37,232 bases of DNA, from positions 1 through 37,232 of the IMG/VR virus record IMGVR_UViG_3300010293_000016, one strand, 5' to 3'. Below, piece by piece: positions 3,993 to 36,463 of this stretch (its first letter is position 1; each line of letters starts with the position of its first letter). The stretch comes from a virus. The position numbers and the translations under genes are program-made. A model generated the notes under the pieces. It was given only the letters and a program-made list of their open reading frames with translations, did not search any database and was not told the origin of the DNA.

Positions 3993-5921
3993 ATGGGAAA
4001 AGATTATCGTAACATGCCTTCATACATTAGACACTTTGTTGATCAATCAAATACTAAAATTCGGCCGTTCGTAGTGAGCGGGAATTTTAATACTGAATAT
4101 ATTAGAGGAAACCAAAACATCAAGATAGGTGAGAACCTAATCATCAAAGCTAAACAGTATGAAGATGCTAAAGTATATACAGAAAGAAAAATATTTAACC
4201 GCATGAATCCTATCTACTTAACACGCTATGCAATCTTAACAGATAATATGCCTATCCCTGGATTTAAGCCAAGCACATCATCCCATAAGAGTGTCATCGA
4301 TGCGAACAAAGGTAATTCGTTTATCACAGAATTCATGCAAGACATTGACTTTAAAGCTAAGCACTGTAAGATCATCACTCGAGGAGATACCTATGCAGCT
4401 GTATGGGTTAAGACTGGAGTCGATTGGTCTGAAGGTGAAGATGTTGCAACAATAGAAGTAGATGTTAACGGAGAGAAAAAAGAATTCCTTCTTAAAGAAG
4501 GTAGACCTTTTATTCAACCTATACCTTTACACGAAATAGCTGTTGATAATTTATTTGTTGACAGTATTGATGAGGTCCAAGAACTTGCTCACCGTAAGCC
4601 ATACTCTCTTGATTATATTAAAAAGCGTTGGGGCTATGATGCTAAGTCTGAGGAAATAACAGATGTCATGGGAACAGAACTTCCAGGACAACGTGGAGTA
4701 AACAATCCATCGGATATGAAATATGCATTCGTATATGAATACTATAAGAGAGCAGACATTGAATATCCTGAAGGAAGACACATCATCATGGTTAATGATA
4801 AAATTCTTTATGATCAAAAACTTCCATACGAAAATGGGTTTAACGGTAAACGTAATATCCCATTTGATATTGTTAACTTACAAACAGTTCCAGGACATAT
4901 CTTTGGTATGTCAGTTTATCCTCAGTTGATTCCTATCCAGGATACATTGAATGCAGTAAAGAATCGTTACCTTGAATATGTTAACCATATTGCTATTGGT
5001 CAACTCTATTACTGGGAGGGATCCTTATTAAATAAGTCAACCTTCTCTACTAAACCTGGTAAACTAATTGGACTTAAGCGTAACGCACGTCCACCTCAAG
5101 CAGTTCAGAAAACTCAGTTAACAAATGAATTCATTAGTTACTTGCGTATGCTCGATGAAGACATGCTAATCACAGCTGGTCTATCACCACTTACTGTGTA
5201 TGGTACAGGTAAGTCTAATATGAGAACTGATGGTGTTGTTGATAAGGTAGCAGAATCAGATCAAAATAAACTGGTTAATGCAATTGATAATATATCAAAC
5301 GCTTACATCCAGATCTTTAAAAAAATTTTATATCTAGAGAAATTTCGCCAGAAATTTATAAAAGAGAAACTTGGTCTTGCTAAGAAAGACGCCTACGTGG
5401 TAAAATACAACTTAGAAGAGGTTGACGTAGAACAACTCACAATTGTAAACAGGGAGTTCCTGATGCAAAGTGACCAGATATACGACAAGAAACTTCAGCA
5501 AGCAAATCAGTTAGGGCTCTACAATGCCCAGATGAACTTATCTTATATCAGTAAGAAAGAGTTGTTGAATGCTATCAAAGCAAACTATCTGAAGGATACA
5601 CTTGATCCTAAAGAACGTGCGAACCATGAGCTTATTGAAACAGAACATTTTATGATCTTAGATTCTAAGAAACCAAATGTTGAACAGTTTCATAATCATG
5701 AGCAGCATATCTATGAGCATGACCTATTCAGACTGTCTCCTGAATTACTAGTGCTCAAAGATAAAGATGCTAAGAAGTATGATCTTATACTTCAAAGTAT
5801 CAATGAACACATTCAACATCACCAAAAATTTGTACAAAAGAATCAAGGCCAAAATGTTTATGATGGTGCCAAGGCGTTTATGAAGAGTACAGCTCAGGGA
5901 GAACCTAGAGCCAAGGCCTAA
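3993..5921 (+). CDS. Portal (head-tail connector) protein
   Basis: This 642-residue protein is probably the dodecameric portal at the packaging vertex, through which TerL drives DNA. The call rests on position (TerL, portal, scaffold, capsid order), length, and portal-like features: a mixed N-terminal clip/wing region, a segment PFDIVNLQTVPGHIFGMSVY followed by a helix IPIQDTLNAVKNRYLEY typical of portal stem regions, and a charged, helix-rich C-terminus (from about 430) that could form the crown. The ribosome binding site AGGAGG at 3980-3985 fixes the ATG at 3993. No frameshift is seen. Confidence 0.85.
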   Translation: MGKDYRNMPSYIRHFVDQSNTKIRPFVVSGNFNTEYIRGNQNIKIGENLIIKAKQYEDAKVYTERKIFNRMNPIYLTRYAILTDNMPIPGFKPSTSSHKSVIDANKGNSFITEFMQDIDFKAKHCKIITRGDTYAAVWVKTGVDWSEGEDVATIEVDVNGEKKEFLLKEGRPFIQPIPLHEIAVDNLFVDSIDEVQELAHRKPYSLDYIKKRWGYDAKSEEITDVMGTELPGQRGVNNPSDMKYAFVYEYYKRADIEYPEGRHIIMVNDKILYDQKLPYENGFNGKRNIPFDIVNLQTVPGHIFGMSVYPQLIPIQDTLNAVKNRYLEYVNHIAIGQLYYWEGSLLNKSTFSTKPGKLIGLKRNARPPQAVQKTQLTNEFISYLRMLDEDMLITAGLSPLTVYGTGKSNMRTDGVVDKVAESDQNKLVNAIDNISNAYIQIFKKILYLEKFRQKFIKEKLGLAKKDAYVVKYNLEEVDVEQLTIVNREFLMQSDQIYDKKLQQANQLGLYNAQMNLSYISKKELLNAIKANYLKDTLDPKERANHELIETEHFMILDSKKPNVEQFHNHEQHIYEHDLFRLSPELLVLKDKDAKKYDLILQSINEHIQHHQKFVQKNQGQNVYDGAKAFMKSTAQGEPRAKA

Positions 5922-20088: not shown

Positions 20089-20368
20089 TAAGATAAAGCC
20101 TTACCTCACACCAAAAATGTTTATCTCATTTGGTATAGCATGGATAATCACTAACGGGTGGTGTTATATATTTATAGCTTTAGGGCCTATCTTAGGATGG
20201 AACTGGATGACAGTGGCAGGATCAACATGGGCTGTCATCTTATGGCTTCCATTCACCATAGAAAAGCCTATTACATTTGCAATTGCTTTATGGATTCAAA
20301 AGAAACTATTTATTAATAAGAAACGTAATGATATAATAAAGTCAAAAGGAGATGACTTAAGTGAATAA
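20063..20368 (+). CDS. Small integral membrane protein (holin candidate)
   Basis: I place the start at the ATG at 20063 (101 residues) rather than the upstream in-frame ATG at 19997, because the upstream part would lie wholly inside the previous gene and the 20063 ATG follows a GGGAAAGG sequence. It has two or three hydrophobic segments (MFISFGIAWIITNGWCYIFIAL, about 19-40; WMTVAGSTWAVILWLPF, about 48-64; possibly ITFAIALWIQKKLF) and a basic C-terminal tail (KKRNDIIKSKGDD). Size, segments and charged tail match holins, but similar small membrane proteins of unknown role are common in gut bacteria. Holin is a guess. Confidence 0.6.
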   Translation: MSRYSSLYNKIKPYLTPKMFISFGIAWIITNGWCYIFIALGPILGWNWMTVAGSTWAVILWLPFTIEKPITFAIALWIQKKLFINKKRNDIIKSKGDDLSE

Positions 20369-21671
20369 GATTCCCTATTTCAGACAAGGTCAAGAGATTA
20401 CAACTGCAGAACTTAATACAATCATCAAAAGTGTGAATGCTTTTATCACACTCTACACAGAGATGAAAAATTATAAAGGGCAGATTGAAACCGCTGAGGC
20501 CTCACACAATGCAGTGATTGAACAGTTCGTCTCCAGCTATGAAGAGATCATTAGAGAAACGCCTAACATTTTAGACATCTTGCAAAATTTTACTGGCTCA
20601 ATTCCTCCACAAGAAATTGTTGAGGTTATACAAACATTCTCAATCATTGATGGGTACTGGTATATTGACGGTGTTAACACTAACGTCTTAGCACAAGGCA
20701 CACCAGGTGCACAAGGATCTGACGGAGATCCAGGTGCTGATGGTGAACCAGGATATACATTGATACCTGTTATTGAAGATTTCGAAATCAGCTGGATAGT
20801 TGTAGATAAGACAGGTACTCAAGTCTTTGACCATGGACTGACGCTACCTCAAGGTACAAACATACGTGGACCTCAAGGACCTGAAGGGCCTCAAGGTATT
20901 CCAGGTTTAAAAGGTGATACAGGTCATACAGGTGCTCCGGGGCAACAAGGACTCCCTGGCGAAAAAGGAGACAAAGGTGATCCTGGCACACCATTCATTC
21001 TTAAAGGTAGTATCACTGATGAATCAGAATTACCTACAGCTACAGCTTTAATATTAAGCCATGCCTATATTTTAATCAATGAATCAAACCCAGCCCATCA
21101 ACATTTCTTTGTTGCTTCGCTTATATCAACAAATCCTAATGTATACAATTGGGTAGATACAGGTAACGTCTTAGGACCTAAGGGTGACAAGGGTGACAAG
21201 GGTGACAAGGGTGACAAGGGTGACACGGGCGACACGGGCGGCCAAGGTATCCAAGGTATCCAAGGTATTCAAGGTATCCAAGGTATCCAAGGTAATCCAG
21301 GAGCTAAAGGAGACAAAGGAGACAAAGGGGATACAGGAAATATTGGACCTACCGGATCTCAAGGTCCCGCCGGTGAAGGCTTAGGCTCAACAACAGGAGC
21401 TCCGCTATCATCTGACTCCACTGTCAGTGTAGATGGCTTTGCAGTTCAACTAGACTTCTACGACTATGTCAATGCAAAGACTACATCTAAATGGATTTAT
21501 GGTAACAAAACATTTAACATCACTAATGGTGGTAGTGGTAACTATCAATTTGTTACAGTTAGTATCACAATGTCAGCTGAACAAGTCACGATTGTTTATG
21601 ATGAAACAGGATACTCAGGAACTAAACCACAAAGTTTAGTTGTTATCTATAGAGTAAAGAAGGCGGTGTAA
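20361..21671 (+). CDS. Collagen-like tail fibre protein
   Basis: This 436-residue protein starts at GTG 20361, with AAAGGAGATG upstream. Order: N-terminal helical stalk (1-110), a first Gly-X-Y block (about 113-132), a beta insert, a second block GPQGPEGPQGIPGLKGDTG to GDKGDPGTP (about 172-212), a globular insert (about 213-270), a third block with GDK x4, GDT, GIQ x5, GDK x2 (about 271-340), then a C-terminal strand head domain (about 341-436). Gly-X-Y tracts form triple helices in phage fibres. The C-terminal head is probably the receptor-binding or trimerisation unit. The N-terminus does not share the anchor of the three upstream fibre paralogues. Confidence 0.9.
   Translation: MNKIPYFRQGQEITTAELNTIIKSVNAFITLYTEMKNYKGQIETAEASHNAVIEQFVSSYEEIIRETPNILDILQNFTGSIPPQEIVEVIQTFSIIDGYWYIDGVNTNVLAQGTPGAQGSDGDPGADGEPGYTLIPVIEDFEISWIVVDKTGTQVFDHGLTLPQGTNIRGPQGPEGPQGIPGLKGDTGHTGAPGQQGLPGEKGDKGDPGTPFILKGSITDESELPTATALILSHAYILINESNPAHQHFFVASLISTNPNVYNWVDTGNVLGPKGDKGDKGDKGDKGDTGDTGGQGIQGIQGIQGIQGIQGNPGAKGDKGDKGDTGNIGPTGSQGPAGEGLGSTTGAPLSSDSTVSVDGFAVQLDFYDYVNAKTTSKWIYGNKTFNITNGGSGNYQFVTVSITMSAEQVTIVYDETGYSGTKPQSLVVIYRVKKAV
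21183..21300 (+). repeat. Tandem 9-bp repeats encoding Gly-X-Y
   Basis: Two adjacent 9-bp tandem arrays: GGTGACAAG (four exact units, then two variants) and GGTATCCAA (five units including one variant). They encode GDK and GIQ triplets of the collagen-like region. They are translated and in frame, so this is not a CRISPR array. Slippage would change triple-helix length without a frameshift. Confidence 0.95.
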
Positions 21672-30897: not shown

Positions 30898-30926
30898 TTG
30901 ACATCCTGTTCTGTATGTAGTATACT
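30898..30926 (+). promoter_or_regulatory. Strong sigma-70-type promoter of the second early operon
   Basis: -35 TTGACA (30898-30903) is perfect; the spacer is 17; -10 TATACT (30921-30926). The start would be near 30933, ahead of the AAAGGAG ribosome binding site (30941-30947). Confidence 0.85.
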
Positions 30927-30958
30927 ATAGATAGAATAGGAAAGGAGTCCATTCAAAT

Positions 30959-31396
30959 ATGAAACGAATACAGACTGACGTACATCAAAGACTCGATGTA
31001 TTAGGCGTTAAAGTTTCACAGTTCTTAGAGGACTTTGGCATGTCATCTGCAGGCTTCTATCGTGCACTTATGTATCGTAAGGGAGAACATAAGCCAACGA
31101 AGACGGTTCTTGCAGATTATAACACCATTGAGTTCCTTATGAATAACTGTGAAACACGCAGAGCATATGACACATATGTTAAAGAACATGGTGTTAAAGA
31201 GAAGGCAGTTGTCGCTCAATCTATAGGCGAAGTTTACGAATCAAACAAAGCAAGTGAAGAAGTTATCACTAATGAAGCTTTTAAAATTCAACAAGTTATC
31301 TGGTCAAAGAACAAGCTTAGCTTAGAAGAAAAGATTACTGTCCTTGAAAAAGAGAACGCAGCATTGAAGACACTACTTAAGATTTATATGGTATAG
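30959..31396 (+). CDS. Candidate DNA-binding regulator with HTH-like N-terminus and zipper-like C-terminus
   Basis: This 145-residue protein follows a strong promoter and AAAGGAG. The N-terminal 45 residues (HQRLDVLGVKVSQFLEDFGM, SSAGFYRALMYRKGEHKP) resemble a helix-turn-helix; residues 115-145 (KNKLSLEEKITVLEKENAAL, then KTLLKIYMV) form a heptad coil that could dimerise it. The middle is charged and helical. It sits directly downstream of operator-like boxes, so autoregulation is likely. It may be the early/late regulator. HTH assignment is by pattern and is less certain than the coil. Confidence 0.65.
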   Translation: MKRIQTDVHQRLDVLGVKVSQFLEDFGMSSAGFYRALMYRKGEHKPTKTVLADYNTIEFLMNNCETRRAYDTYVKEHGVKEKAVVAQSIGEVYESNKASEEVITNEAFKIQQVIWSKNKLSLEEKITVLEKENAALKTLLKIYMV

Positions 31397-32499: not shown

Positions 32500-33141
32500 A
32501 TGCCACTACAAATTAGACAAGGAATTCAACCTACATTTGATATCTTAATAGATGAGAATGTTGTGATGAAAATCATTAAACTTGAGTTGAACCCAAAGAA
32601 CTCAGGAAGTATTATTGTATCATTTCAAATAATGACTGGTAAGTATAAAGGTCAGATTCTTAAAGACTATGTAGACTATGATCCAACTAGTAAACTAGCC
32701 TGGAGATATCAAAACCTACGTAAAGCTGCGGGTGTTCCTTATACTAAGGATGAACCAGAGTCAATCGATATTGAACGCTTACTATTAAACCAAGCGGTCT
32801 CAGCTAATTTATCTAAACGGGATTACAAAGACAAGACTACCGGCGTTGATAAAGTTGCTCAGCAAATTGATTACTTAGAAGAATCAGACATCACTGAAGA
32901 AGAGCTAGAAACTATTCAAGATGAGATTGAAGCAAAGCAAAAAGCTGAAGAACAAACATTACCTTTCACACAAAAGAAAGATCCAGAACCAGTAGGTTCA
33001 ACCGTGTCAGACGCCGCTCCATCTAAGCCTGAAGATGTAGTACCTGCGAAACAATCTGAAGGTATAGGCGAATCAATGTCTATTACTGAAGAAGAAATTC
33101 CAGGAAAGGACAAACCAGAAAATGGCTGGCCATGGGAATAA
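32500..33141 (+). CDS. SSB-like single-strand DNA-binding protein (DUF669-like)
   Basis: This 213-residue protein has ribosome binding site GAGAGGAA. The N-terminal 130 residues are strand-rich (TFDILIDENVVMKIIKLEL, SGSIIVSFQIMTGKYKGQIL, DYVDYDPTSKLAWRYQNLRK), a pattern of phage DUF669-type proteins that are thought to act as single-strand-binding proteins. The C-terminal 80 residues are acidic and disordered and end with NGWPWE, comparable to the acidic, aromatic tips by which SSBs recruit partners. Its place next to a Sak4-like ATPase supports an SSB role. Confidence 0.72.
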   Translation: MPLQIRQGIQPTFDILIDENVVMKIIKLELNPKNSGSIIVSFQIMTGKYKGQILKDYVDYDPTSKLAWRYQNLRKAAGVPYTKDEPESIDIERLLLNQAVSANLSKRDYKDKTTGVDKVAQQIDYLEESDITEEELETIQDEIEAKQKAEEQTLPFTQKKDPEPVGSTVSDAAPSKPEDVVPAKQSEGIGESMSITEEEIPGKDKPENGWPWE

Positions 33142-33451
33142 TACTCCTAAGCTAGAATCTAAGTTTCAAAAAGATGTGCTTTACTTCCTTCGCAAAGTGG
33201 TAGGTGGACACTGGATTAAAATCCATGCGTCTGCCTTCCAACTTGAGGGGGAACCTGATATCGTTGGTGTATATAATGGAAGGTTCTATGCTTTTGAATT
33301 AAAGCAAGGGACCTATCAACCTACAGAATTACAATTATTTAAACTCGAAAAGATTAGAGAAGCTGGCGGTATTGCAGATGTCATACGAGACCTTGATCAA
33401 TTAAAAATTATCTTCTATGGATCTACGACAATTCCATTCAGCAATCAATAG
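33122..33451 (+). CDS. VRR-NUC-type nuclease
   Basis: This 109-residue protein starts inside the end of the SSB-like gene (20-base overlap). Its motifs match the small VRR-NUC/PD-(D/E)XK fold: ESKFQKDVLYFLRK with early Glu, the EPDIVG acid (about 44-49), YAFELKQG (E-x-K, about 56-63) and the conserved TELQLFKLEKIREAGG (about 68-83). Stand-alone VRR-NUC proteins of this size are common in phage replication clusters and are thought to act as structure-specific or Holliday-junction nucleases. All catalytic positions appear intact. Confidence 0.88.
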   Translation: MAGHGNNTPKLESKFQKDVLYFLRKVVGGHWIKIHASAFQLEGEPDIVGVYNGRFYAFELKQGTYQPTELQLFKLEKIREAGGIADVIRDLDQLKIIFYGSTTIPFSNQ

Positions 33452-35360
33452 CTATAACGAGCCATGGTATACACCTCTCCGTAATGGAAAGGTTGTAGGC
33501 AGCAGACTTGTTGGCCGTACGATTACAGATCTACTACCTATCGCACAGTCAGATCCACTATTCGAGTTGGGTTTAATTATTCCACCAAACTATATCGTTA
33601 TCGAAATCAAAGAGTATAGAGTACTCGAGGTTATTGAAGAAAGAAAAGAGAATGTAATTGTAATTGAAACACCTAATGGGTTACAGATCCTGGCACAAAG
33701 TTTCTTTGATAAAGCCACGGTTAATAACACCCTAGCATGTGGTGTCTTAGCTGATACTTTAAGTAGTTCAAGAACTAAAACAATTATAACTCTACCTTTC
33801 AAGACAAAGCATTGCACATCAAAGTTCTTAGAATCTTACACTCTTGTTTATGCAGGCGAAAAGATAGGCTTCCTACCTGATTGGTTAGAGCCCATCCATA
33901 AACAATCTAGACCTGACACAACGGATGCATTAGTTCCGCCTTACACATCCTTCGAACCTTTAATTAAAAAGATAAATCAATTCAATGTTGTAACCCGTGA
34001 AGAAGTAGCGAAGATTATAAATAAATATTTTATGCAAAGTCCATTAACAGACGATGAACTACAAGCAGTATTAAAGAATGCAGCCTACATCAATAACAAA
34101 ATATTCTTTGATGGTAATACATTCCTTCATAACGTGCTCGGAGAATACATGATCAATAAGTGTAATATAAAAAGAGATAAGAAAACAAATTTACTGTACC
34201 ACTACAATGAACAAGAAAAGATATATGAACACAGACCAGAATACTTACTAGGATATATGACCAGACTTGTACCTATACTAAAAGATTATCAAAAGACCGA
34301 AGCTTTAAAATACATTGATAATTTCTTAGTCATGGAACCTGTAGAATTTGACCAGGATCCATACTCAATCGTATTTAAAAATGGTATACTTGATGTGTTA
34401 ACAATGGAGTTTAACCCTATGGATGAAACCCATATGGAAACTATCAAACTTAATGTTAACTACAACCCTCATGCGTACCAAAAAACAGCAGATGAATTCT
34501 TCCATACAGCTACACAAGGGGATGCCGATATAGAAGAACTACTATACGAAGCCATTGGCTACTCCATGCTTAAGACGAGTGAACTCCAGAGTGCATTCAT
34601 CATGGTAGGGACAGGGCGTAATGGTAAGTCGACATACCTTGAAGTTATTCGTAACATCTTAGGTAAACAAAATACCACAAGTATATCGTTTAAAGATCTA
34701 GCGAACAACTTCAGAGCAAGTGCTTTGGATGGTAAGTTAGCATCGTTGGCAGGGGATATAAGTAGCACACCTATCTCGGATTCCGACATGGTTAAATCAA
34801 TTATTGCCGGCGAAGAAATCATGGTAGAACGTAAATACAAAGATGCCTATGATAAGTCATTGTTTGCCACAATGTTCTTCTCAGCAAACGTGTTACCAAG
34901 AACTCCGGATACAAGCGACGGATTCTACCGTAGATTTCCTATCATACCATTCACTGCAGACTTGTCAAAGGTAAGCCGTGTTGATGGGGCATCGTTCAAA
35001 CGTGAACTGCTCAGTCAAAAAGCCCTTGATTACATCGCATACAAAGCAGTGATTGCAATTAACAGAGTATTAGAAGTTACTAAAGAGTTTACGATTCCTC
35101 AAGCAGTCAAAGATATGGTTCAAAAATATAAGACAGATAATAGCTCCATCCTATCATGGTTCTATGACTCTTATAAGAACGATGTTAATAAGATTGTAGG
35201 TAAGGAACTACGTAACCTATACTATGAGTACCAAGAGTGGTGCGATAAGAACTCCTTCAAGCATGTCAGAGTTACTAAGTTTGAAGAAGACTTTATGAAC
35301 AATTTCAAGATCGTTATCAACGAAAAGGAACGTATCGCACTACGAGCAGACATTGTATGA
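33417..35360 (+). CDS. D5-type primase-helicase (SF3 helicase)
   Basis: This 647-residue protein initiates at ATG 33417, overlapping VRR-NUC by 35 bases with no clear ribosome binding site. The C-terminal half has the D5-like SF3 helicase: Walker A VGTGRNGKST (about 397-406), a Walker B-like ASLAGDIS (about 441-448), and motif C-like FATMFFSANVLPRTPD (about 478-493), followed by GFYRRFPIIPF. The N-terminal 250 residues have no primase motif I can see and may be a divergent primase or a regulatory domain. It would unwind and possibly prime DNA for the family A polymerase. The gene ends exactly where the structured RNA segment begins. Confidence 0.9.
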   Translation: MDLRQFHSAINSYNEPWYTPLRNGKVVGSRLVGRTITDLLPIAQSDPLFELGLIIPPNYIVIEIKEYRVLEVIEERKENVIVIETPNGLQILAQSFFDKATVNNTLACGVLADTLSSSRTKTIITLPFKTKHCTSKFLESYTLVYAGEKIGFLPDWLEPIHKQSRPDTTDALVPPYTSFEPLIKKINQFNVVTREEVAKIINKYFMQSPLTDDELQAVLKNAAYINNKIFFDGNTFLHNVLGEYMINKCNIKRDKKTNLLYHYNEQEKIYEHRPEYLLGYMTRLVPILKDYQKTEALKYIDNFLVMEPVEFDQDPYSIVFKNGILDVLTMEFNPMDETHMETIKLNVNYNPHAYQKTADEFFHTATQGDADIEELLYEAIGYSMLKTSELQSAFIMVGTGRNGKSTYLEVIRNILGKQNTTSISFKDLANNFRASALDGKLASLAGDISSTPISDSDMVKSIIAGEEIMVERKYKDAYDKSLFATMFFSANVLPRTPDTSDGFYRRFPIIPFTADLSKVSRVDGASFKRELLSQKALDYIAYKAVIAINRVLEVTKEFTIPQAVKDMVQKYKTDNSSILSWFYDSYKNDVNKIVGKELRNLYYEYQEWCDKNSFKHVRVTKFEEDFMNNFKIVINEKERIALRADIV

Positions 35361-35627
35361 GCTTCTGGCCAAAGCTCAGAACCGGCTGGCATTCCGGATC
35401 TCCTAAAGATTAGGCCAGTTTCCATAACCTAGCATGGGTAGAGGTGTCCCCAAGCACCTCACATAATTACGGTAAAGGGGTACTGCCACTTATCCCCCCT
35501 ATCAACTACAATGGAGAGGCTGCCGCCGTAAGCTGAAGGCCTCCTATCAAGGGATTGAGCTCTTGGCCCATGCACACCTTCCTTTCGGAAAGAGAATCGG
35601 AACTTGTCACTCCGGTTCTTTTTCTTT
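35359..35627 (+). ncRNA. Highly structured, possibly pseudoknotted RNA (unclassified)
   Basis: This G+C-rich, ORF-poor segment follows the primase. Pairings: GAGCTT/AAGCTC (35359-35364/35372-35377); CTGGCC with GGCCAG (35365-35370/35413-35418, loop to downstream); AGAACCGG/CCGGTTCT (35378-35385/35612-35619, closing helix or competing with the terminator); GCATGGG/CCCATGC (35432-35438/35567-35573); GAGGTGT/GCACCTC (35441-35447/35454-35460); TTACGG/CCGTAA (35467-35472/35526-35531); AGGGG/CCCCT (35476-35480/35496-35500); GAGGC/GCCTC (35516-35520/35539-35543), crossing the TTACGG helix to give a pseudoknot; CAAGGG/CTCTTG (35548-35553/35560-35565). It ends at a terminator. No promoter is clear, so it may be processed from the early transcript. 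No tRNA, RNase P, tmRNA or group I signature is seen. Confidence 0.6.
35593..35627 (+). terminator. Intrinsic terminator at the end of the structured RNA
   Basis: AGAATCGG (35593-35600) pairs with CCGGTTCT (35612-35619), one G-U, with an 11-base loop, followed by TTTTTCTTT. The right arm can instead pair with AGAACCGG (35378-35385), so the closing helix and terminator are mutually exclusive, a possible switch. Confidence 0.8.
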
Positions 35628-35635
35628 ATAGGTAT

Positions 35636-35677
35636 AAATAAAAAACCAACGCACTGGGGGGGATGTGTACGTTGGTT
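35636..35677 (-). terminator. Leftward intrinsic terminator with C7 loop
   Basis: On the minus strand, AACCAACG (35677-35670) pairs perfectly with CGTTGGTT (35651-35644), extended by GTG/CAC after a two-base bulge, with a C7 loop, and is followed by T6-A-T3 (35645-35636, first Ts shared with the stem). It would also stop read-through from the leftward small-subunit gene. Confidence 0.88.
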
Positions 35678-35715
35678 CTGGGCCTACAACTCGGAGACAA
35701 AAGGTCTCCTCATCT
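35636..35715 (-). ncRNA. Predicted small RNA with C7 terminator loop
   Basis: A perfect promoter and a terminator define an RNA of about 80 nt on the minus strand. From its predicted start near 35715 it has an AG-rich 5' end (with AGGAG), a hairpin GGAGAC/GTCTCC (35704-35709 and 35693-35698) with a 5-base loop, a linker, then the terminator stem. The terminator loop contains seven consecutive C residues (35662 to 35656). C-rich loops in Gram-positive small RNAs often bind G-rich ribosome binding sites, so it may repress translation. The start, end and any target are predictions. Confidence 0.6.
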
Positions 35716-35721
35716 ACTTAT

Positions 35722-35750
35722 ATTATACTATATAACGGACAAAATGTCAA
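35722..35750 (-). promoter_or_regulatory. Perfect consensus promoter, leftward
   Basis: On the minus strand, -35 TTGACA (35750-35745) and -10 TATAAT (35727-35722) are separated by 17 bases: all 12 positions match consensus. It lies directly after the stop of the leftward protein gene. A CGGACAA box (plus strand, 35736-35742) lies in the spacer. Confidence 0.92.
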
Positions 35751-35756
35751 CACATT

Positions 35757-36383
35757 TTATTCTTTTTTATATAGATTAACTCCCTCATAGTGGAGTACAT
35801 AAGGCATCCCGGTATCAGGATTGATATCCGCATCCAGCGTAGCTTCTGGCTCCACATCGATAACAACTTTATCTTTCGGTTCGAAGTCCGTTACAGGTTT
35901 GTCGTGAAGGGTGGCCACTTCAATCTTGTATGTAATGTTATTAACTTCGACATCTGCTTTCTCATTCTTCTTCTTCGTATTCTTCGATAGATCTAATATA
36001 ACTTTTGCTGCTGCTAATGCTATAGCTTCATCCTGTGTAGTGGTCATGATATACTTGGCTTTAGCTAAGGCCATCTGACTTGAGCTAGAAAGTTCTGCTT
36101 CAAATGCTTTATCCTTCGTTACTGTCAGATCATTGATCGTCTCTGTAACTTCGGGAACAGCAAGCATTCGATTCGCAGCGACACGTGCATTCCCTACTCG
36201 GGGTTTCATTACACGCATTGCTTGCTCAGGAGTATAGTCTGCAAAGCAGATCAACTCCACAAACATCTTCTGTTCTTTATCTAGTAGATGATACTTAGTG
36301 TTCTTTATCTTACCTGATTTAATTGCTTTCTCAATTTCTTGCTTCGTTTGCAGGATCATGGGTTGAAATACTCTATCACTCAT
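35757..36383 (-). CDS. Terminase small subunit candidate
   Basis: This 208-residue protein is the only clear leftward protein gene. Its start is set by GAGAGGGGTGA upstream on the minus strand. Residues 33-90 (LDKEQKMFVELICFADYTPE, then QAMRVMKPRVGNARVAANRM, then VPEVTETINDL) match the helix-turn-helix N-terminus of terminase small subunits ('Q..F...y......eAm......n.r.aA.rll..p.V...i'). A helical middle (AIALAAAKVILDLSKN) and acidic C-terminal tail follow. It would recognise the packaging site and load TerL. It is encoded about 34 kb (or the missing part) from terL and has its own promoter, unusual for the pair. A transcriptional regulator with an HTH is the alternative. Confidence 0.6.
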   Translation of the reverse strand: MSDRVFQPMILQTKQEIEKAIKSGKIKNTKYHLLDKEQKMFVELICFADYTPEQAMRVMKPRVGNARVAANRMLAVPEVTETINDLTVTKDKAFEAELSSSSQMALAKAKYIMTTTQDEAIALAAAKVILDLSKNTKKKNEKADVEVNNITYKIEVATLHDKPVTDFEPKDKVVIDVEPEATLDADINPDTGMPYVLHYEGVNLYKKE

Positions 36384-36403
36384 GGGCTCACCCCTCTCAT
36401 ATC

Positions 36404-36433
36404 ATTATATCACATTGACATATTTTTTGTCTA
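36404..36433 (-). promoter_or_regulatory. Leftward promoter of the small-subunit gene
   Basis: On the minus strand, -35 TAGACA (36433-36428), spacer 18, -10 TATAAT (36409-36404) with an extended TGA just before it. It overlaps the rightward promoter; each -35 lies inside the other's spacer or core. Confidence 0.8.
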
Positions 36434-36444
36434 CATGGTATAAT
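36415..36444 (+). promoter_or_regulatory. Rightward promoter of the late/head-start genes
   Basis: -35 TTGACA (36415-36420), spacer 18, extended TGG, -10 TATAAT (36439-36444). A half-site TTGTCTAC (36427-36434) lies in the spacer, identical to the first half of the palindrome at 30765. It drives the 36464 gene and the genes that run off the window. Confidence 0.88.
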
Positions 36445-36463
36445 GATGCCAAGGAGTGGTGCT

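Follow-up and report, generated by a model that had tools for sequence, protein, structure and literature searches.

Positions 35361-35627 of the window, by which we mean IMG/VR record IMGVR_UViG_3300010293_000016 (37,232 bases, analyzed from its sequence), are with somewhat better than even probability the 3′ untranslated tail of a replication-operon (primase) mRNA, situated within a phage small-RNA locus. Such a locus likely lies between the primase and the terminase-like gene, as predicted from the promoters, hairpins and terminators found at this junction in the window and in seven related phages. A large structured RNA, as proposed for the segment in an earlier note on this DNA, is possible. 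Apart from its terminator, however, the segment folds little better than shuffled sequence.

Layout and composition of the junction

The last gene of the replication operon encodes a D5/P4-type primase-helicase (33417-35360, plus strand; Pfam DUF5906 and D5_N) that is 42-51% identical to those of the seven relatives and ends with a stop codon at 35358-35360. About 400 bases without a credible ORF separate this stop from a convergent minus-strand gene (35757-36383), a candidate terminase small subunit whose position is conserved in relatives. The L008 homologue of this gene matches PHROG 51, a family of terminase small subunits (5.5e-5), and the segment does adjoin a small-terminase-like gene, as the earlier note had it. 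The link to packaging that the note suggested on this basis gained no support, as the terminase-like gene is convergent and on the other strand, and we found no other pointer to packaging.

By its composition and reading frames, the stretch from 35361 to 35573 (plus strand) is a G+C-rich, non-coding segment that would, if transcribed, form the 3′ untranslated tail of the primase mRNA. Together with the terminator (35361-35627), it has a G+C content of ~51%, compared to a phage mean of 37%. In 100-base slices from 35351 to 35600, the content is 49-53%, compared to 37.4% for the window, which confirms the contrast with the surroundings that had been described. The earlier reading that the segment lacks a credible ORF was likewise confirmed when the frames were checked; two of its longest open frames have no protein family match, and we rejected a coding remnant for this reason.

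The segment closes, as also claimed, with an intrinsic terminator (35587-35627, plus strand). Its stem (35594-35601/35611-35618) is extended by an A-rich stretch that pairs with the U-tract at 35619-35627, with pair probabilities of about 0.9-0.95 over 35587-35601/35611-35625 and a z of -3.9 for the slice 35574-35632.

Searches for known families and homologues

The earlier note had not matched the segment to tRNA, tmRNA, RNase P, group I intron or phi29 pRNA. In the Rfam search that it proposed, no match emerged either: at gathering cut-offs, Rfam 15 matched no family in the window, and loose thresholds yielded only weak matches far under the cut-offs (E 0.22 and 0.46). A tRNA/tmRNA search also returned none, and the segment contains no intron or other element of Rfam. 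Conservation of the segment was not borne out, as searches of phages, plasmids, viral contigs and relatives' genomes yielded no homologue. BLAST against phages and plasmids produced chance pieces only; the phage matches of 41-46 bits (E 0.03-0.4) fall on 35715-35760, which is the area of the minus-strand promoter and outside the segment. Exact patterns taken from the segment had no match in viral contigs, a single 21-base exact match in a Proteobacteria MAG came without further similarity, and a match in G008 (L095), located in an unrelated gene region, was discarded as chance. A covariance model of the core, which is a weak test when built from a single sequence, found only itself. The viral collection yielded about nine records of the clade, the closest being 51% identical in the primase, and near-identical records may escape such searches.

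Folding of the segment

The earlier note described at least nine helices in the segment, including a long-range helix enclosing others and crossing helices that would make a pseudoknot. The complements it listed are exact. The long-range 7-bp pairing on the plus strand (35432-35438/35567-35573, GCATGGG/CCCATGC) encloses hairpins at 35441-35460, 35477-35497 and 35511-35547, while the crossing helices pair 35467-35472 with 35526-35531 (TTACGG/CCGTAA) and 35516-35520 with 35539-35543 (GAGGC/GCCTC). Their frequency, however, is ordinary when compared to shuffled sequence: a helix scan of the segment recovers a single perfect helix of 7 bp, against a shuffle mean of 1.4, and seven helices of at least 6 bp, against a mean of 5.4; at least one long-range 7-bp helix is present in 75/200 shuffles; and the 25 crossing pairs of helices fall below the mean of 30 in shuffles. 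A longer pairing, 35367-35379/35555-35568, competes with 35432-35438/35567-35573, and because of this competition with the named helices there is no single dominant fold; the minimum-energy fold, the centroid fold and the one drawn previously disagree.

The whole 269-base segment has a z of about -3.4, which is largely due to the terminator. With the terminator removed (35359-35573), z is only -1.5 to -1.6, and 17-20 of 300 dinucleotide shuffles fold equally well, so that outside the terminator the folding energy is not set apart from that of shuffles and the large pseudoknotted fold is not upheld. A core at 35428-35577 reaches a z of -2.7 (3/300 shuffles), with borders that were picked after looking. 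When the whole window was scanned as 215-base slices, 82/346 had a z below -1.7, and several coding slices are far lower than the segment, such as 5591-5805 in the coding region of a portal-like gene, which at z -6.3 is the strongest RNA fold of the scan. A gene begins at 33122, and the surrounding region (33090-33340) also folds unusually well (z -3.5).

The same slot in related phages

The seven relatives with the same junction (L006, L087, L007, L086, L009, L008 and L010) were found by primase alignments. Scans with single primase and terminase sequences returned no relatives, whereas alignment-based scans found them, and two further scans added no new member with a full junction. The synteny of a plus-strand primase and a minus-strand TerS-like gene is kept in the relatives, with the two genes convergent and the intergenic gaps short. 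The 396-bp gap of the window is the longest of the clade, the others being roughly 80-280 bp to the next gene or to the terminase-like gene.

At or just past the primase stop, all seven relatives have a sigma-70-type promoter with a perfect TATAAT that scores 9-12 of 12; in three of them the score is 12 of 12 and the -35 box lies within the last primase codons. Of 1000 shuffles, 0-48 attain the scores of 10-12, and 267 attain the 9 of L087. In the window, by contrast, the best promoter at the primase stop scores 7 of 12, a value reached by 765/1000 shuffles. Downstream of the relatives' promoter, a short RNA is predicted that measures about 70-130 nt and closes with a terminator hairpin; promoter and RNA together span 5889-6043 in L006, 5909-6045 in L087, 5946-6098 in L007, 5955-6104 in L086, 5907-6062 in L009, 5892-6026 in L008 and 5886-5994 in L010. 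A clear 5′ hairpin opens the predicted RNA in six of the seven (that of L010 is weak), and four of the seven RNAs still beat shuffles when the terminator is left out, at z -3.4 to -5.8, which the window segment does not. An intrinsic terminator ahead of the convergent gene, which also characterizes the relatives' plus-strand small RNA, is present in the window.

Three of the predicted RNAs (L006, L087 and L008) contain an anti-Shine-Dalgarno-like linker with ACCUCCUUU; it is mostly unpaired and reads ACCTCCTTT, which we take to resemble the anti-Shine-Dalgarno tail of 16S rRNA. In L006 and L008 this reading is ambiguous because the opposite strand reads as a Shine-Dalgarno site, and it stays a lead.

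More distant phages differ in this position. PI-Sepi-HH2 (L003, 4803-5120) and LincolnB (L004, 3836-4090) have A+T-rich post-primase sequences in which CATAAGACA and GTAACAGA-like motifs recur, partly as inverted copies; these sequences are likely replication origins. Their post-primase folds (z -3.7 and -6.4, respectively) were considered as counterparts of the segment and rejected, as they are origin-like A+T-rich inverted repeats that are dissimilar to it.

A predicted small RNA on the minus strand

Of the small-RNA genes that may lie at the junction in this phage, the one with the best support is predicted on the minus strand, at 35638-35715. At the end of the convergent gene, a sigma-70-type promoter (TTGACA-17-TATAAT, 35722-35750, minus strand) matches the consensus in 12 of 12 positions and, read from 35750 to 35722, is one of the window's two perfect promoters. 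The putative transcript of ~75 nt would consist of a 5′ hairpin (GGAGAC/GTCTCC), a linker, a terminator hairpin whose loop is C-rich, and a U-run; it includes an inverted repeat (35644-35654/35667-35677). L007, L009 and L086 show a like arrangement on the minus strand with a recognizably similar promoter.

Interpretation of the segment

The reading of 35361-35627 as an mRNA tail is consistent with non-coding sequence that ends in a strong terminator and with the lack of a promoter above shuffles at the primase stop, where the relatives score 9-12. The convergent synteny, the perfect minus-strand promoter and the significant folding of four relatives' RNAs, which the segment lacks, also speak for it. 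Transcription of the tail would come from RNA polymerase reading through from the primase genes, with no promoter recognizable at the stop here; the polymerase would be released at 35587-35627 and so kept out of the convergent terminase-like gene. A stable piece may then be cut from the 3′ end of the tail, like 3′UTR-derived small RNAs, and the small RNAs of the locus may act in trans, with C-rich or anti-Shine-Dalgarno stretches pairing with mRNAs. Against this reading, the length and G+C content of the segment are unusual for a plain 3′UTR of this phage, and the chosen core has its z of -2.7.

The same core value also speaks for an autonomous, pseudoknotted phage RNA of about 215-270 nt that would replace the relatives' short small RNA, as do the predicted small RNAs in the same slot of seven relatives, the absence of an ORF and an absolute folding energy that is the lowest of any 215-base slice in the phage. 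We nevertheless consider such an RNA unlikely: the segment minus its terminator folds close to the shuffle mean, helices and crossings occur at chance frequency, the long-range pairings compete, no promoter stands at the primase stop and no homologue was found. Of the undescribed phage RNA that was originally proposed, what stands is that the segment is non-coding and foreign to Rfam and that the relatives' slot encodes predicted small RNAs, whereas the large fold and the conservation do not. Quite unlikely, in turn, is the scenario in which the clade carries promoter-driven small RNAs, as a convergent pair in some members, and the plus-strand RNA here became, or was replaced by, a larger structured RNA of an undescribed class. 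A shorter RNA of ~110 nt, starting near 35519 from a weak internal promoter (CTGCCA-18-TACAAT, 35483-35512) and comprising the linker CACACCTTCCTTTC and the terminator, would be a counterpart of the relatives' RNA displaced by ~150 bp from the primase stop. Its promoter-like match is 9 of 12, and its anti-Shine-Dalgarno-like linker roughly resembles that of L006, L087 and L008, but the region has about as many promoter matches as shuffles do, the -35 box is a poor one and the alignment with L006 and L087 is weak, making this RNA distinctly improbable.

Two further possibilities concern the DNA itself. An insertion of foreign DNA or of a now decayed mobile element between the primase gene and the terminator, without present function, would account for the jump in G+C, the longest gap of the clade, the missing promoter and the lack of similarity to anything searched. 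Yet two of the longest open frames have no protein family match, Rfam identifies no intron or other element, and around the segment there is no clear target-site duplication but only an imperfect GAGCTNNTGGCC pair, and we regard an insertion as very improbable. Least credible to us is a replication origin or initiator-binding site. It is suggested by PI-Sepi-HH2 and LincolnB, whose related primases are directly followed by several direct and inverted copies of the motifs described above, but the segment is G+C-rich and lacks iterons, GAGCTNNTGGCC being present in just two copies, as well as any A+T-rich stretch for unwinding, and in close relatives the slot holds a short terminated RNA instead.

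If transcribed, the junction would represent a fixed place for small RNAs between the replication and packaging genes of a phage clade, and the anti-Shine-Dalgarno-like stretches in some members would offer a testable way to adjust translation during infection. The large RNA would gain importance only through covariation among near relatives.

Comparison with known RNAs

The OOP RNA of phage lambda has its own promoter beside the replication genes and a terminator at its end. Together with PreS, it is among the small RNAs known to be encoded by phages (review, PMC12197685). The predicted RNAs of the junction resemble OOP and PreS as short RNAs encoded by phage genomes, but show no sequence relation to them. 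They also differ in lying between two convergent genes and in having no overlap with the opposite gene. RsaE and RoxS are C-rich small RNAs of Bacillota (PMC9217828, PMC5419742). The unpaired ACCUCCUUU in some relatives' predicted RNAs and the CCCCCC loop in the window's predicted minus-strand RNA, which would suit pairing with Shine-Dalgarno sites, are reminiscent of them. However, no Rfam family matches the junction RNAs, and ACCUCCUUU has the ambiguity in L006 and L008 that was described above.

ROOL and GOLLD are much larger than the segment. Both are large non-coding RNAs from phage and rumen-type samples (PMC12286853), and the segment has no match in the Rfam library. The phi29 packaging RNA, considered in view of the terminase-like neighbor, is a small phage RNA as well, but the segment differs from it in having no Rfam match, a convergent terminase-like gene and no ring-forming loop pairs that we could identify.

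Other features of the window

At 36401-36447, an imperfect palindrome contains a pair of divergent promoters that interleave, scoring 12 of 12 on the plus strand and 11 of 12 on the minus strand; they possibly form a switch that admits one polymerase at a time. Within 30898-30941, ahead of the gene at 30959, a promoter that matches 11 of 12 positions is overlapped by an imperfect palindrome (30904-30941) that may be an operator. Finally, 20361-21671 encodes collagen-like repeats (Pfam PF01391), probably of a tail-fiber protein.
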